Source: Cyanobium sp. ATX 6F1 (GTDB lineage Bacteria; Cyanobacteriota; Cyanobacteriia; PCC-6307; Cyanobiaceae). Taken from it: a DNA stretch of 64,000 nucleotides. Positions 8,292-14,388 of the stretch are shown here, piece by piece; within the stretch, counting starts at the first letter, position 1, and each line of letters starts with the position of its first letter. The stretch is from contig NZ_JAGQCS010000002.1 in assembly GCF_024346315.1 (NCBI RefSeq), forward strand, positions 310,001 through 374,000, read 5' to 3'. The notes beneath the pieces were generated by a model. It did no database searches and had not been told where the DNA came from. It saw nothing but the letters and a program-made list of their open reading frames with translations. The position numbers were made by a program, and so were the translations under genes.

Positions 8292-9368
8292 ATGCTCCCT
8301 CCGCTGACTCCGCTGCGACCTGACTCCAGCGCTCGCAATCGGCTTCTGATCAGTCTTGCCCTGGTGGGAGCAGCCCTCGCCGGTGGCTTAGCAGTTCAGG
8401 CTCAGCAAGCGAGCGGCGGCGCCCCAGCCGCCGAGATCGGCGTCTACTCCGGCCGCCACTACAACACCGACAAAGAGCTCTACCGCCAGTTCACCGCACG
8501 CACCGGCATCAAGGTCAATCTGCTGGAGGCCAAGGATGACGCCCTGATCGAGCGCCTCAGGAGCGAGGGCAAGAACAGCCCCGCCGACGTGCTCGTGCTC
8601 GTGGATGCCGCCCGCCTGGAGAAGGCCACCTCCCTGGGGCTGTTCCAGAGCGCCCGCTCCGCCGCCCTGCTCAAAGACGTGCCCCTCAACCTGCGCGATT
8701 CCAAGGGCCGCTGGTATGGGCTCACCCGCCGGGTGCGCCTGGTGGTGGTCAACCCCAAGCAAGTGAAACCCGGAGCCATCCGCACCTACGCCGATCTGGC
8801 CAGCCCCGCCCTCAAGGGCAAGCTCTGCCTGCGCGATCGCAGGAGCGTCTACAACCAGTCGTTGGTGGCCGATCAACTGATCCAGCGCGGTGAGGCCGCC
8901 ACCCGGCAGTGGATCAAGGCTCTGACGGCCAACGTCAGCCAGCCCTTCTTCAGCTCCGACACACCCCTGGCCCGGGCCGTGGCCAGCGGGGAGTGCGGCG
9001 TGGGAGTGGTGAACTCCTATTACGTCGCCCGGATGCTCACCGGCCAGGGTGGCGCCAGCGACCAGGCCCTGGCCCGCAACCTCAAGGTGGTCTTCCCCAC
9101 CCCCGCCCACGTCAACATCAGCGGCGCCGGCGTCACCCGCCACGCCCGCAACCCCCAGGGGGCGATCCGGCTGATCGAATTCCTGGCCTCCCCCAGCGGC
9201 GGCAAGGGCTACGCCGAAGCCAACAACGAATACCCGCTCAAGGGCTATGGCAACAACGCCACCTTGAAGAGCTTTGGCCCCTTCAAGGCCGATGCCGTCA
9301 CCGTGGAGCAGATGGGGGCGAAGAACCGCGCCGCCGTCGAGCTGATGGAGGCGGGGGGCTGGAAGTAG
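8292..9368 (+). CDS. futA: iron(III) ABC transporter substrate-binding protein FutA/IdiA
   Basis: A 358-residue periplasmic ferric-binding protein with a signal peptide (RNRLLISLALVGAALAGG). The mature start IGVYSGRHYNTDKELY carries the family's YSGRHY motif, and the later VVNSYYVARM supplies the paired Tyr ligands of FutA/IdiA-type proteins. The length matches the family. It is 31 bp upstream of the permease futB. FutC, the ATPase, is not in the window; it is commonly encoded elsewhere in picocyanobacteria. The region just upstream has a Crp-type palindrome and a structured leader. Confidence 0.93.
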   Translation: MLPPLTPLRPDSSARNRLLISLALVGAALAGGLAVQAQQASGGAPAAEIGVYSGRHYNTDKELYRQFTARTGIKVNLLEAKDDALIERLRSEGKNSPADVLVLVDAARLEKATSLGLFQSARSAALLKDVPLNLRDSKGRWYGLTRRVRLVVVNPKQVKPGAIRTYADLASPALKGKLCLRDRRSVYNQSLVADQLIQRGEAATRQWIKALTANVSQPFFSSDTPLARAVASGECGVGVVNSYYVARMLTGQGGASDQALARNLKVVFPTPAHVNISGAGVTRHARNPQGAIRLIEFLASPSGGKGYAEANNEYPLKGYGNNATLKSFGPFKADAVTVEQMGAKNRAAVELMEAGGWK

Positions 9369-9399
9369 GGCTCCTAAACTGAGCTTTACCTCAGTGTCC

Positions 9400-10962
9400 A
9401 TGGCAGCCGCTGGCAAGGCTCTAGCAGGGGTCGAACCCAGCCGGGAGAGGCCCAGCCGGGGGGTGCTGGCCGGGGGCGTTCTGTTGATCTGCGGCCTGGC
9501 CCTGGCCCCGATCGCGATGCTGATCGGCTTCACCGCCCTGGGCTCCGGGCCCGCCGCCCTGGCCCTGGGGGCCGATGGCCGCGAGCAGCTGCTCAACACC
9601 GTGGCCCTGGTGGCGGCCGTTGGTGCCCTGGGCGCCCTGCTCGGCACCGCCAATGGCTGGCTCACCGCCTGCTGCCGGTTTCCCGGGCGCCGCTGGCTGC
9701 GGATCGCCCAACTGCTGCCGCTGGCCACCCCCGGTTACCTGCTGGCCGCCACCTTGATCGACCTGGGCAGCCAATGGCAGCTGCGCGTCCACGGGCTGGG
9801 TTGGACCGTGCTGGTGCTGACCCTGACCACCTACAGCTACGTGTTTCTGCTGGCAACCGAGAGCTTTTCGGCGAGCGGCCAGCGCCAACTGGAGGCCTGC
9901 CGCAGCCTCGGGGTGGGCCCCTGGGGCAGCTTCGCCCGGGTGGCCCTGCCGATGGCGCTGCCCTCGATCGGGGCGGGGATCGCCCTGGCCGGCATGGAGG
10001 TGGTGAATGAGCTGGGGGCCGTGGAACTGCTGGGGGTGCCGACCCTCTCGAGCGGCATCCTGCAGCGCTGGCAGGGGGAAGAGGATCCGCGTGGCGCCGT
10101 GGGCCTGGCCCTGTTTGCCCTGGTGATTGTCAGCCTGCTGGTGGGGGCTGAACGCCAGCTGCGCGGCCGCAGCCGCCGCTGGGCCCTGGCCCACGGGGGC
10201 GATGCCCCCCAGCGCTGGCCCCTGGGGGGTTGGCGCACCCTGGCGGCCCAGACCCTGACCCTGCTGCCCCCGCTGGCCACCCTGGGGCTCCCCCTGCTCT
10301 GGGCCGCCCTGAGCTGGGACCAACTCCAGGGGGAATCGGCCGCTGAGCTGCTGGGGCTGAGCCTGCGCAGCCTGGGGCTGGCCCTGGCGGCCGCGGGGAT
10401 CACCGTGGGCAGCGCGCTGCTGCTGTCGATCGCCCGCCGCTGGCTGCCCTCGCCGCTGCTGCAGCGGCTCAGCTTTGCCGCCGGCATGGGCTATGCGGTG
10501 CCGGGCACCGTGCTGGCCCTGGCTCTGATGCTGATCGGCGGGCCGCTGGCCCTGAGCCCCCTGCTGCTGCTGCTCTGGGGCTATGGCGACCGCTTTCTGG
10601 CGGTGGCCAAGGGCGGGCTCGATGCGGCCCTCGAGCGCCTTCCTCCCAGCGTCGATGAAGCCGCCACCGGCCTGGGCTGCAGCTGGCCCCAGGTGTTGGC
10701 CCGGGTGCACCTGCCGCTGTTGAAGGAGCCCCTGCTGGTGGCGGGCCTGCTGGTGTTCGTCGACACGGTCAAGGAGCTGCCGCTCACCTTCGCCCTGCGC
10801 CCCTTCGACTTCGACACCCTGGCGGTGCGGGTGTTCCAGTACGCCAGTGATGAGCGTGTGGGGGCGGCGCTGCTGCCGGCGCTGCTGATCCTGCTGCTGG
10901 GGCTGGCGGCCTCGCTGGCGCTGGTGCCCAGCCTGGAATCAGGCCGCCGCCAGGGGGGCTGA
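9400..10962 (+). CDS. futB: iron(III) ABC transporter permease FutB
   Basis: A 520-residue inner-membrane permease with about twelve hydrophobic helices in two repeated halves. Each half has a binding-protein-dependent transport motif with EAA-loop character: EACRSLGVGPWGSFARVALP in the first, DEAATGLGCSWPQVLARVHL in the second. This duplicated FbpB/SfuB layout is typical of ferric permeases. The ATG at 9400 is preferred over a GTG two codons upstream. The 3' end overlaps a 24-codon remnant of an IdiB-like gene on the opposite strand, and the last codons are part of a direct repeat found again 2050 bp downstream. Confidence 0.9.
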   Translation: MAAAGKALAGVEPSRERPSRGVLAGGVLLICGLALAPIAMLIGFTALGSGPAALALGADGREQLLNTVALVAAVGALGALLGTANGWLTACCRFPGRRWLRIAQLLPLATPGYLLAATLIDLGSQWQLRVHGLGWTVLVLTLTTYSYVFLLATESFSASGQRQLEACRSLGVGPWGSFARVALPMALPSIGAGIALAGMEVVNELGAVELLGVPTLSSGILQRWQGEEDPRGAVGLALFALVIVSLLVGAERQLRGRSRRWALAHGGDAPQRWPLGGWRTLAAQTLTLLPPLATLGLPLLWAALSWDQLQGESAAELLGLSLRSLGLALAAAGITVGSALLLSIARRWLPSPLLQRLSFAAGMGYAVPGTVLALALMLIGGPLALSPLLLLLWGYGDRFLAVAKGGLDAALERLPPSVDEAATGLGCSWPQVLARVHLPLLKEPLLVAGLLVFVDTVKELPLTFALRPFDFDTLAVRVFQYASDERVGAALLPALLILLLGLAASLALVPSLESGRRQGG

Positions 10963-11010
10963 GACCACCAGTTCCGGGGCCAACCGCAGGCCGCTCTCAC
11001 CCGCGGGGGC
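10939..11010 (-). pseudogene. 3' fragment of an idiB-like regulator gene
   Basis: The minus strand encodes 23 residues (APAGESGLRLAPELVV... then a stop at 10939-10941) that match the C-terminus of the IdiB-like protein at 12989-13585 with few changes. Homology ends abruptly at about 11011. It overlaps the end of futB tail to tail. The likely ancestral order was futB directly convergent with idiB, later separated by an insertion. Confidence 0.75.
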
Positions 11011-11011
11011 C
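10947..11011. repeat. left copy of a 65 bp direct repeat flanking the methyltransferase islet
   Basis: Aligned base by base with 12997-13061 (offset 2050), 60 of 65 positions match. It covers the end of futB and the idiB-like C-terminal codons. Confidence 0.8.
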
Positions 11012-11079
11012 GACCTGCTGGCTCCCCCCTTCTGAAGGCGGAAGCGTTCATGATCAACCACTCAACGCCCGGGAGGCTG

Positions 11080-11361
11080 TTATGAAGCAGGGTTCATTGA
11101 ACGTCCACTCAGCTCTTCTTGCTGGGGTTCATTCCCGATCGATGAGTGCATCCGGCTGATGTTGTCAGCCATGGCCATCAAGCCGGCTCGGATCGACTGA
11201 ATATCATGACCCCGCATCAGTTTGAGAGTCAGGGTCCGCAACAGGGCAAGTACCTGGATCAATACGCCGTCGCGCTTCAGAATTCCGTTTCTGATCAGCG
11301 ATCTGAACAAGCGCCCACCGCCGGAGTGGGGCTTGTATATATTTGAAACGATGGCCTCCAA
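11080..11361 (-). CDS. uncertain small ORF in the islet
   Basis: A 93-codon frame that opens only with TTG and has an in-frame stop ten codons upstream. It encodes a basic, leucine-rich sequence (VLALLRTLTLKLMRG, then a helical MAMADNISRMH tail). Base use is close to the neighbouring AT-richer islet. It could be a remnant of a larger gene or a short hypothetical protein; I do not recognise it. Confidence 0.3.
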   Translation of the reverse strand: MEAIVSNIYKPHSGGGRLFRSLIRNGILKRDGVLIQVLALLRTLTLKLMRGHDIQSIRAGLMAMADNISRMHSSIGNEPQQEELSGRSMNPAS

Positions 11362-11482
11362 CTTATTGCATTTGCTGTCAAGTTATCCTATCGATCCAGT
11401 AGAGAATGGGCCCCGCTGAACCGTCCCTCTCTACTTATTTCTTTTCAAGTCGGCCCAACTTGATCCCATCGCAGCTCCCTCC

Positions 11483-12688
11483 ATGCAGCCAACAAACATG
11501 GTTGATCTCAGTTTAAAAGTTCATGGGCAGCGGACCCCAGAAACTGATCAAACGAAATCAGGCGCTGTCGAAACGGGCCTGCAGCGCTACCTACCTTTGG
11601 TAGGAGATGTGACCCGCAAGCACCCTATCGCCTATCACGCCACACGAGCTGCCACCCGTGTTGTGAATGCCGTACAAATGGCCGTGGGCGAATCCTACGC
11701 GAACGGACTGGAACTTCCCGATCCAGTCCTGAAGGCACTGTTTGATACAAGCATGCCGTTCTTCTTTAAGTATGTGCCTGCTCTACTTGCCCCCTATGAG
11801 TGGGTGTTGCAGGAAACCGACCAAGTGGCGGAAGGCTCGAAGGATCTGATGAAGATCCAATATGACCTACCACAGGGAATGCTCAATACAATGCTAGGCA
11901 ACGGCAAAGTGATTTATCCCAAATACAGCATGGGCCTTTGGGACAAAGGGGCCGCTGATCTCGAGCAATCTCAGATACAGATGATTGATGACATCATAGA
12001 AAAATTAGATATCAAAGATGGCGATAACATTCTCGACTTTGGCTGTGGCTGGGGATGCATCCCTAATTATATCCTATCAAAGTTTCCCAATGTCAGAATG
12101 ACCGGGATTAATCTCAGCCATCATCAGTGCGAGTTTATACGTCAACGCATGCAGGATCCGCAAAGTCATCTGGCATCGGGTCGCTTCACCCTCGTCGAAG
12201 GCGACCTGAATGATCCATACTTTGAAGAGAAGTTTGATAATATTCTTTCCATTGGCGTTTTTTGCCATGTTGGCAACCTCACCAATGCCTTTGCGAAGCT
12301 GGCTTCCTTCTTAAAGCCAGGTGGCAAGTTCTTCCTTCATATCATCACCGTACGCACACCGAATAACATTTCCAGCGCCTTTACGCACAAGTATATTTTC
12401 CCCCACGGGCGCTACTGGAATTACGATGCCGTTCCAAGCCACAACAGAAATCTGAAGACTGTCCAGCGCTGGTACATGAATGGTAATAATTACTCGCGTA
12501 CATTTGCAGAGTGGTTGAAGAATTTTGACGCCCACATTGAAACCAACAAAGATTTAAACTATGGCGCCATGGACTTCTCCCGATTCCGGCGTATTTGGCG
12601 TTTTTATCTAATCTGGTTTGTTTCAAACTTTGCCAGCTGTGATGGCGAGATCAATGGCAACGGCCAATTTCTCTTGACCCATAACTAG
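11483..12688 (+). CDS. cyclopropane-fatty-acid-synthase-like SAM methyltransferase
   Basis: A 401-residue class I methyltransferase related to cyclopropane fatty acid synthases and coclaurine-N-methyltransferase-like enzymes. The N-terminal 110 residues are a helical region. Then come YPKYSMGLWDKGAADLEQSQ (the family's YSxGxW...LExAQ block), SAM motif I ILDFGCGWGCIPNYI near 190, and GINLSHHQCEFIRQRM (post-I). FDNILSIGVFCHVG and a FLKPGGKFFLHII strand follow. Codon use is clearly AT-richer than the surrounding genes, and no Shine-Dalgarno sequence is visible. It sits inside the 65 bp direct repeats, so recent acquisition is likely. The substrate (lipid or small amine) cannot be set from sequence. 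Confidence 0.85.
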   Translation: MQPTNMVDLSLKVHGQRTPETDQTKSGAVETGLQRYLPLVGDVTRKHPIAYHATRAATRVVNAVQMAVGESYANGLELPDPVLKALFDTSMPFFFKYVPALLAPYEWVLQETDQVAEGSKDLMKIQYDLPQGMLNTMLGNGKVIYPKYSMGLWDKGAADLEQSQIQMIDDIIEKLDIKDGDNILDFGCGWGCIPNYILSKFPNVRMTGINLSHHQCEFIRQRMQDPQSHLASGRFTLVEGDLNDPYFEEKFDNILSIGVFCHVGNLTNAFAKLASFLKPGGKFFLHIITVRTPNNISSAFTHKYIFPHGRYWNYDAVPSHNRNLKTVQRWYMNGNNYSRTFAEWLKNFDAHIETNKDLNYGAMDFSRFRRIWRFYLIWFVSNFASCDGEINGNGQFLLTHN

Positions 12689-12751
12689 GGCTTGATAAAA
12701 ATCCCAAAAGCTATCCAAGTAGCCATGTGCTTGGAAGAAACTGTCTCGCTG

Positions 12752-12886
12752 TCAAAGCTGCAAACGCGCAAGATTGGCCTCGGACTGGCATATTAAATAA
12801 TCAATATCCAGCCTGCCCTCTTCAGTGGCTTGAGCAGCAACAGCAGGAAATAATCCAGGCAAAGAGAGAATAACCCAGCCAAACAT
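12752..12886 (-). CDS. possible truncated secreted-protein ORF
   Basis: A 44-codon ATG frame on the minus strand. It has a signal-peptide-like start (MFGWVILSLPGLFPAVAAQA) followed by only 24 residues with one Cys. No clear ribosome-binding site is seen. It resembles the first part of the small secreted proteins that are frequent at 20-40 kb, so it may be a truncated gene. The rest of 12689-12988 shows nothing else. Confidence 0.3.
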   Translation of the reverse strand: MFGWVILSLPGLFPAVAAQATEEGRLDIDYLICQSEANLARLQL

Positions 12887-12988
12887 AACCAAGAGTCTTT
12901 CCGACACTTGTCACATAAAGAGCCATTGAGATCACGCCTTCAGTGTCTCAATCAGTTTCGTGATGATCTGACTATCACCTGACTCCGC

Positions 12989-13585
12989 TCAGCCGACCGC
13001 CAGGGGGGCTGAGGCCACCAGTTCCGGGGCCAGCCGCAGGCCGTTCTCTCCGGCGGGGGCCTCCAGCAACCTGGCCTGGCGGATCTTCGAAATCAGCCGG
13101 GTGCTGGTGACCCGGGTGGTGCCGATCAGTTCACCGATGCGCTCGTGGGTGAGTCGGAACGGCAACTCGCACCAGACGCCGCAGCGGCGCCCGAGCCGGC
13201 GCACCAACAGGGAGAGCAGGGCATGGAGCCGCTGATCGGCGGAGCCCAGGTGACGGATGCGCAGCAGTTGCAGGGTCCACTCGTTGACCGGATCGAAGCC
13301 GTCTGAGGCCAGGGGCTCGGCATCGCTGCGAAAGACCAGGGGCGTGAGCGCTTCGACGCAGACGCCTTCACTGCAAAGACGATCGGTGCGCAGCTGGTCG
13401 CCCGGCTGCAGGAAGGCCAGGGTCATGCCCTCGGTTTCCTCGCAGGGGCAATAGACCCGGGCCACCCCTTCGAGCACCTCGATGCAGCTGCCGGAAGGCC
13501 GCAGGGCGGGATCCAGCAGCACGGTCTGGCCGACGGGCATGCGTACGGCAGGGGCGGGTTGATCGGGCAGGAAACGGAAGCTCAT
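12989..13585 (-). CDS. Crp/Fnr-family regulator, IdiB-like
   Basis: A 198-residue Crp/Fnr-type regulator. An N-terminal cupin-like cNMP-fold region (about 1-100) precedes a C-terminal winged helix with LTHERIGELIGTTRVTSTRL near 145-165. In Synechococcus elongatus IdiB, a protein of this family, is encoded next to idiA and activates it under iron limitation. The same proximity to futA/futB and fur here supports an IdiB-like role, by context rather than residue-level proof. Two tandem Fur-like boxes lie 33-87 bp upstream of the start. Its last codons are duplicated next to futB at 10939-11011. Confidence 0.75.
   Translation of the reverse strand: MSFRFLPDQPAPAVRMPVGQTVLLDPALRPSGSCIEVLEGVARVYCPCEETEGMTLAFLQPGDQLRTDRLCSEGVCVEALTPLVFRSDAEPLASDGFDPVNEWTLQLLRIRHLGSADQRLHALLSLLVRRLGRRCGVWCELPFRLTHERIGELIGTTRVTSTRLISKIRQARLLEAPAGENGLRLAPELVASAPLAVG
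12997..13061. repeat. right copy of the 65 bp direct repeat flanking the islet
   Basis: Matches 10947-11011 at 60 of 65 positions. This copy is the intact 3' end of the IdiB-like gene, so the left copy is the fragment. Confidence 0.8.
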
Positions 13586-13772: not shown

Positions 13773-13964
13773 ATGGGAACCCCCCAGGCTGAACCCACGT
13801 TCTTCCAAAACAGCATGGTTCGCCTGCACGGAGACCGCTCCAGCCTTCTGGCCGCCCTCGCCGCCGAATGGGCCGATCAGCAGCTGCAGCTGCCAGGCTC
13901 CCGCTGGCCTGAGCTCAGACCTGCTCCGCCGCGGCGCAGGGGGGACAGAGCCCCCGCACGTTGA
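13773..13964 (+). CDS. uncertain small ORF overlapping fur
   Basis: A 63-codon ATG frame whose last 50 bp overlap the fur 3' end on the other strand. The N-terminal part (GTPQAEPTFFQNSMVRLHGD) looks more protein-like than the Arg/Pro-rich tail, which mirrors fur. It could be a small regulator-region protein or chance; I do not recognise it. Confidence 0.25.
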   Translation: MGTPQAEPTFFQNSMVRLHGDRSSLLAALAAEWADQQLQLPGSRWPELRPAPPRRRGDRAPAR

Positions 13965-14388
13965 GCACGCATTCCAGCAACCGGAAGCCATGGCCGGCGG
14001 CCGCCTGCTCGCCGGCGCTGAGCACCGCGGGGCTCTCGAATTCCTCGGTGCGGCCGCAGCGCACGCAGACCAGGTGGTGGTGGTTGCGGTGGGTGTCGCT
14101 TGCCAGCTCGAAGCGCCGGCCCCCTTCTGGCAGCTCCAGCTCCTGCAGCAGTCCGAAGGAACTGAGCAGCCGCAAGGTGCGGTAGACGGTCGCCAAAGAG
14201 ACGCGCCCGTCGGAGCGAATCAGACGCTGGTGAACCTCCTCGGCGCTCAGATGGCTGCCTTCGCCGATGCGCTCGAACAGTTCCAGCACCCGTTGACGCT
14301 GGGGGGTGAGCCGCCGTCCACGGTCATGCAGGTTGGTGCGCAGGGCGTGGTCCGGCGGTGGGGGGCCGGCGCCGGGGATGGCAGACAT
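13915..14388 (-). CDS. fur: ferric uptake regulator Fur
   Basis: A 157-residue Fur-family repressor. The DNA-binding half has LTPQRQRVLELF and VSLATVYRTLRLLSSFGLLQ. The metal-binding half has the HRNHHHLVCVRCGRTEEF block and the C-terminal LCPPC. Both Cys pairs of the structural zinc site are present. It is the last gene of a minus-strand series, 15 bp after the UPF0104 gene, and is followed 330 bp later by the IdiB-like gene. Its place beside futAB and IdiB points to iron; PerR-type peroxide sensing cannot be excluded from sequence alone. Confidence 0.9.
   Translation of the reverse strand: MSAIPGAGPPPPDHALRTNLHDRGRRLTPQRQRVLELFERIGEGSHLSAEEVHQRLIRSDGRVSLATVYRTLRLLSSFGLLQELELPEGGRRFELASDTHRNHHHLVCVRCGRTEEFESPAVLSAGEQAAAGHGFRLLECVLNVRGLCPPCAAAEQV

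Follow-up and report, generated by a model that had tools for sequence, protein, structure and literature searches.

The junction between futB and an idiB-like regulator gene in Cyanobium sp. ATX 6F1 raises the question of how a low-GC islet of about 2 kb with a methyltransferase gene came to lie between two convergent genes of an iron-uptake locus, with the end of one of these genes present on both sides of it. The window, by which we mean the whole stretch of 64,000 nucleotides analysed, is part of a 436-kb contig in a genome of 2.96 Mb. An iron-binding protein gene and futB are oriented rightward, the idiB-like regulator and a Fur-family gene leftward, and the spacing between futB and idiB is 2026 bp with a GC content of 0.50. 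The features of the locus are as follows:

8292-9368, plus strand: iron-binding protein gene of the futA/idiA type, given for context (top solved match an iron ABC transporter binding protein, E 9.4e-101)
9394-10962, plus strand: futB, a two-domain ABC permease (Pfam BPD_transp_1; named by context)
10939-11011, minus strand: fossil idiB tip, the last 24 codons and stop (65/73 identity to 12989-13061)
11012-12988, no strand assigned: low-GC islet, without a counterpart here in relatives
11080-11361, minus strand: doubtful ORF of 93 aa, without a family match
11483-12688, plus strand: CFA-synthase-like SAM methyltransferase gene, foreign (Pfam CMAS, tree and AU test, GC3 0.55)
12752-12907, minus strand: doubtful signal-peptide-like ORF of 51 aa, found in its own genome only among 151
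12989-13061, minus strand: intact repeat copy, the 3' end of idiB (65/73 identity to 10939-11011)
12989-13585, minus strand: idiB-like Crp-family regulator (Pfam HTH_Crp_2; idiB name from gene context and the earlier note)
13915-14388, minus strand: Fur-family gene, given for context (NCBIfam Fur models, best 97.7 bits, below cut-off)

Orthologues of futB were present in 181 of the 200 family relatives, and the regulator had a 90% identical protein in the one congener compared, Cyanobium sp. Morenito 9A2 (G001); against the PtrA equivalog (NF053664) the regulator scored 39.6 bits, below the cut-off of 300. The two small ORFs of the islet are putative at best, the 93-aa ORF having no match in Pfam or NCBIfam. 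That the islet is an insertion is well supported, and we consider it probable, with some reserve, that it was placed together with its foreign methyltransferase after the split from this congener, by one-sided recombination through idiB.

The direct repeat that borders the islet (10939-11011 and 12989-13061) is 73 nt long, with 65 identical positions (89%), no gaps and a spacing of 2050; elsewhere in the window, on either strand, the next best place for the 73-mer matched at 40/73. Translated, the left copy gives the C-terminus of an idiB product, ending in APELVVSAPLAAA-stop; its first 24 nt are common to the end of futB, with its stop codon 24 nt inside that gene. The two copies cease to be alike at the stop codon of idiB in one direction and at about codon 174 within idiB in the other, with no likeness past 11011 or before 12989. 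The earlier note had described the last 24 codons of the regulator as present twice (60 of 65 bp) and the left fragment as overlapping the futB end; both observations were borne out, the match now being 65 of 73, and the left fragment consists of those 24 codons only and is not an intact second regulator.

Outside the overlap with futB, the two tips were each other's closest kin (44/49 nt), the best other match being 41/49 for the left tip and 42/49 for the right, which suggests that the two idiB alleles diverged once the congener had split off, and gives no indication of a donor from outside the lineage for idiB itself. Both tips carry private changes, and synonymous differences account for three of the five sites that distinguish them beyond the overlap, a pattern that would fit two working alleles, although so few sites decide nothing.

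Comparison with relatives was based on 48 loci, window included, with pairs of futB and idiB chosen by eye among the matches listed; two divergent loci (L148 and L149) were dropped, leaving 45 convergent relative junctions, two of them supplied by one genome (G144), and the window. Among the matches listed, stop-to-stop distances at the 45 junctions ranged from -58 to 13,842 bp, with a gap of zero or less in five and of 60 bp or less in eleven. A direct tail-to-tail arrangement without the islet, which the earlier note had postulated as the former state and had suggested looking for in related genomes, therefore does exist. A clear junction repeat was found in the window only (score 53, against a maximum of 15 at the other 34 junctions of at least 100 bp, among the matches listed), and a comparable fossil was found at none of the other 34 junctions longer than 100 bp among these matches.

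The congener provides a further indication of the former state. Its futB product ends in SLESDRRHGG, that of the window in SLESGRRQGG, and the futB tail of Morenito 9A2 matched its own idiB end at 15 of 18 positions, aligned in the register that an idiB shorter by one codon would give. Among the matches listed, it ranked second to the window in a comparison of 42 of the 46 junctions, the four with negative gaps having been left out. The congener junction now holds a ferritin gene, and no idiB fragment stood out in it, its repeat score of 13 comparing with up to 11 in shuffled sequences. The idiB-like tail of its futB suggests that the overlap is most likely older than the split of the two species; most likely, then, the futB end overlapped the idiB end in their ancestor and the islet is secondary.

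The composition of the islet sets it apart from its surroundings, as the earlier note had said of the DNA between the repeats. GC content was 0.45-0.55 across 11.0-13.0 kb, and the junction as a whole stood at 0.50 against 0.74 in futB. By codon position, GC was 0.52/0.36/0.55 in the methyltransferase gene, compared with 0.76/0.53/0.90 in futB and 0.72/0.50/0.84 in idiB, and the GC3 of 0.55 compares with 0.84-0.90 in futA, futB, idiB and fur. Predicted promoters and terminators in the islet numbered three and one, compared with 1.8 and 2.1 in shuffled sequences, and were likewise discarded. A search for an RNA feature gave one sub-threshold match (17.4 bits against 75), and such a feature was rejected.

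The methyltransferase gene was found at none of the 45 convergent relative junctions among the matches listed and at none of 80 named idiB loci, so that relatives do not share it in this place. Either this sharing or an intact second regulator on the left would, by the earlier note, have refuted its reading; neither was observed, and that reading is supported. Homologues at E 1e-60 or better occurred in 10 of the 200 family relatives (one of them fragmented), with identities of about 62% and always at a location other than the futB junction; in the class as a whole they occurred in 54 of 291 genomes, the present one included, and the best, at 77% identity, belonged to another family. For a tree of 47 proteins we sampled 31 of the 53 class genomes with a match, 9 of the 10 in the family and 6 of 14 more distant ones. 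The window protein fell within a set of eight, seven of them from other families, with support of 98/95, and forcing it to group with the nine picocyanobacterial proteins cost 99 log-likelihood units (p-AU 1.48e-7) and was rejected. An origin of the methyltransferase outside the picocyanobacteria is thus well supported, and the earlier suggestion that the islet DNA is foreign holds for this gene. The eleven best homologues from other families had a coding GC of 0.35-0.48; together with the tree placement and the low GC3, this suggests that the source was most likely a lower-GC, non-picocyanobacterial cyanobacterium, whether directly or through an intermediate.

For the rest of the islet beyond the methyltransferase no source was traced. 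Its flanks, as the non-coding DNA of a donor, had no match in the loci examined, and against 387 other genomes they gave two weak matches of 30-37 nt, neither beside a methyltransferase gene. No putative donor with the methyltransferase adjacent to idiB was seen in the relatives and named idiB loci searched. An origin from a phage or plasmid was rejected: positions 10963-12988 had no DNA match in phages or plasmids, and the protein matches there were all below 60% identity, with none in viral contigs.

The mechanism that we infer, a one-sided recombination combined with an illegitimate join, would run as follows. DNA with the methyltransferase gene downstream of an idiB allele would have entered the cell, and idiB would have served as the homologous anchor on one side of the incoming DNA, the other end being joined to the resident idiB, near its codon 174, with no homology involved. 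The outcome would be a complete idiB ending in incoming sequence, while the resident tip would have stayed on futB. The two borders resemble those of homology-facilitated illegitimate recombination, with the idiB end (65/73) at the anchored border and no homology at the other. The mechanism stays inferential because a mosaic test of idiB against the congener showed no break and no donor was found.

Several other histories could place an islet between two idiB ends. One is that two idiB copies were once present in the lineage, and that exchange or partial duplication left a tip on futB, the methyltransferase being acquired in a separate event, downstream of one of the copies. It finds some favour in the mutual closeness of the two tips and in three named genomes that hold near-identical idiB pairs, one copy facing futB and the other ferritin; the present genome, however, has no second close idiB among the matches listed, only a 46% paralogue, and the idiB pairs are 97.5-99.6% alike in two of the three genomes with double copies, whereas 8 of 73 positions separate the tips here. 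We regard this history as possible but unlikely. Genomic islands use the 3' ends of genes as attachment sites, and with a direct repeat flanking the islet one might think of a mobile element (an insertion sequence, a transposon or an integrase-borne island), the 73-bp repeat then being a target duplication or an attachment site. Yet no recombinase, integrase or transposase was found among the islet ORFs with Pfam and NCBIfam, the best inverted match at the islet borders (10.5) was at chance level against a direct-repeat null of 8.5-10, and there was no tRNA or tmRNA gene within the window. The repeat is moreover 11% diverged and common to no other junction among the matches listed, and we consider this explanation improbable.

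An ancestral islet lost by the relatives would agree with the presence of cargo at most junctions (35 of the 46, window included, exceed 100 bp among the matches listed). It is largely contradicted, and very improbable indeed, given that the methyltransferase is missing from every relative junction in the set, that its GC3 is not ameliorated and that the tree places it among foreign proteins. We also considered that the islet had replaced a ferritin gene such as the one in the congener. A ferritin of the congener's type had no match in this genome at E 0.001, the same query finding the congener copy and 14 others in 26 genomes. Such a replacement is not needed, because an idiB tip that lies on futB implies a resident junction free of ferritin.

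One-sided recombination through idiB, the reading that we prefer, has parallels in other bacteria. An argument of the same one-sided kind was put forward to account for small variable segments of E. coli (PMC2884548) and also to explain how effector ends were displaced in Vibrio (PMC5361080). Homology-facilitated illegitimate recombination, as that first source describes it for three naturally competent species, likewise has one matching anchor end and one homology-free join; here we have a genomic scar alone, and the resident tip was kept rather than deleted. The small variable segments of the same source are likewise short variable stretches between conserved neighbours with no known mobile element, but that class spans 20-500 bp and the present islet is about 2 kb with an intact gene. 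In the displaced effector and immunity genes of Vibrio cholerae, as the second source presents them, a shared gene likewise serves as anchor and the old 3' part is left downstream; the present case differs in having no toxin or immunity genes, in having a regulator of an iron locus as anchor and in having a single fossil. As gene gains go, this one is ordinary in kind and has left an unusually legible scar; it offers a readable case in which a single metabolic gene moved between cyanobacterial groups without a mobile element, the broken end still being present.

With 125.1 bits against Pfam CMAS (cut-off 27), the ORF at 11483-12688 is a member of the CMAS/CFAS superfamily, in agreement with its earlier description as CFA-synthase-like. 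It did not reach the CFA synthase equivalog NF008686 (159.6 bits, cut-off 400), and the nearest solved structure was the CFA synthase 6bqc (E 2e-25). Four aligned positions, which we take to be the bicarbonate-binding Cys, Glu, His and Tyr of E. coli CFA synthase, are Met150, Cys261, His286 and Tyr337 in the window protein, which thus shares a superfamily with cyclopropane fatty acid synthase but has Met and Cys where that enzyme usually has Cys and Glu. Across 41 family members (window 11483-12688, L044-L052, L231-L241 and L252-L271), His and Tyr were invariant, Cys replaced Glu in 36, and Cys never occurred at the first site; six canonical relatives all kept both Cys and Glu. A relative of fatty-acid desaturases lay just upstream in 11 of the 31 other-family loci (0.9-1.5 kb examined), confirmed by Pfam in all four loci checked. 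Co-transfer with a desaturase is not indicated here, because this genome and the congener both have a 51-52% identical desaturase elsewhere.

The superfamily and the desaturase neighbours elsewhere make a fatty-acyl chain the likeliest substrate, and we therefore suggest that the methyltransferase most likely acts on such chains. In cyanobacterial branched alkanes the methyl group comes from SAM, and the methyltransferase was described as not yet identified in the portion of a 2014 survey used here (PMC3903477); the word methyltransferase is absent from the portion used of a 2025 review (PMC12405031). Judged by its sequences, the CFA-like family may be considered a candidate for the SAM methyltransferase of these branched alkanes, and the islet draws attention to an unstudied family that could bear on the branched-alkane methylation treated in that part of the 2014 survey.

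The locus also points to variability between iron-uptake genes, at a site that gains and loses iron-storage genes. Among the matches listed, the 46 junctions held ferritin in 15 cases, a phytase-like gene in 12 and the methyltransferase in one, and flavodoxin with a CP43-like protein, an IS481-type transposase, a sigma factor and an ABC ATPase each occurred at one junction. When spacing was divided into three classes (below 60, 60-299 and at least 300 bp) and placed on a futB tree built by a quick method with one stop masked as X, seven changes were needed.

Three genomes carry idiB twice (L172/L173, L175/L176 and L180/L205, in each at about 9900-10594). The duplicated unit measures 692-713 bp and ends exactly at the stop codon, and its copies are 95.8-99.6% alike. 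In Synechococcus sp. BO 8801 the copies are 97.5% alike, against 88-89% when they are compared with the other two genomes; the Cruz CV13-4-11 pair, at 95.7%, shows no greater likeness than is found with the neighbouring species. In at least one genome the double copies look like a product of concerted evolution, and their near-identity hints that recombination through idiB may be common in the relatives. On this basis one may tentatively propose, though we hold it doubtful, that idiB in picocyanobacteria acts as a fixed anchor for exchange without an integrase, in which the gene at its 3' end (futB, ferritin, the phytase-like gene or the methyltransferase) is repeatedly swapped, the fossil in the window being a caught intermediate and the homogenised double copies of some relatives a result of the same recombination. 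That only a single fossil of this kind was seen speaks against a frequent process of exactly such form.

Two further observations concern the gene content around idiB. A small protein, about 100 aa long and carrying a motif similar to LLGSLCREMGRL, adjoins idiB, often between idiB and ferritin (L110:15431-15772); similar ORFs occur in L118, L126, L133, L137 and L147, and the one checked had no Pfam match. Genes of an iron-stress type also lie between futB and idiB, namely flavodoxin with a CP43-like protein in L147 (G038) and ferritin in both L147 and L110 (G145).
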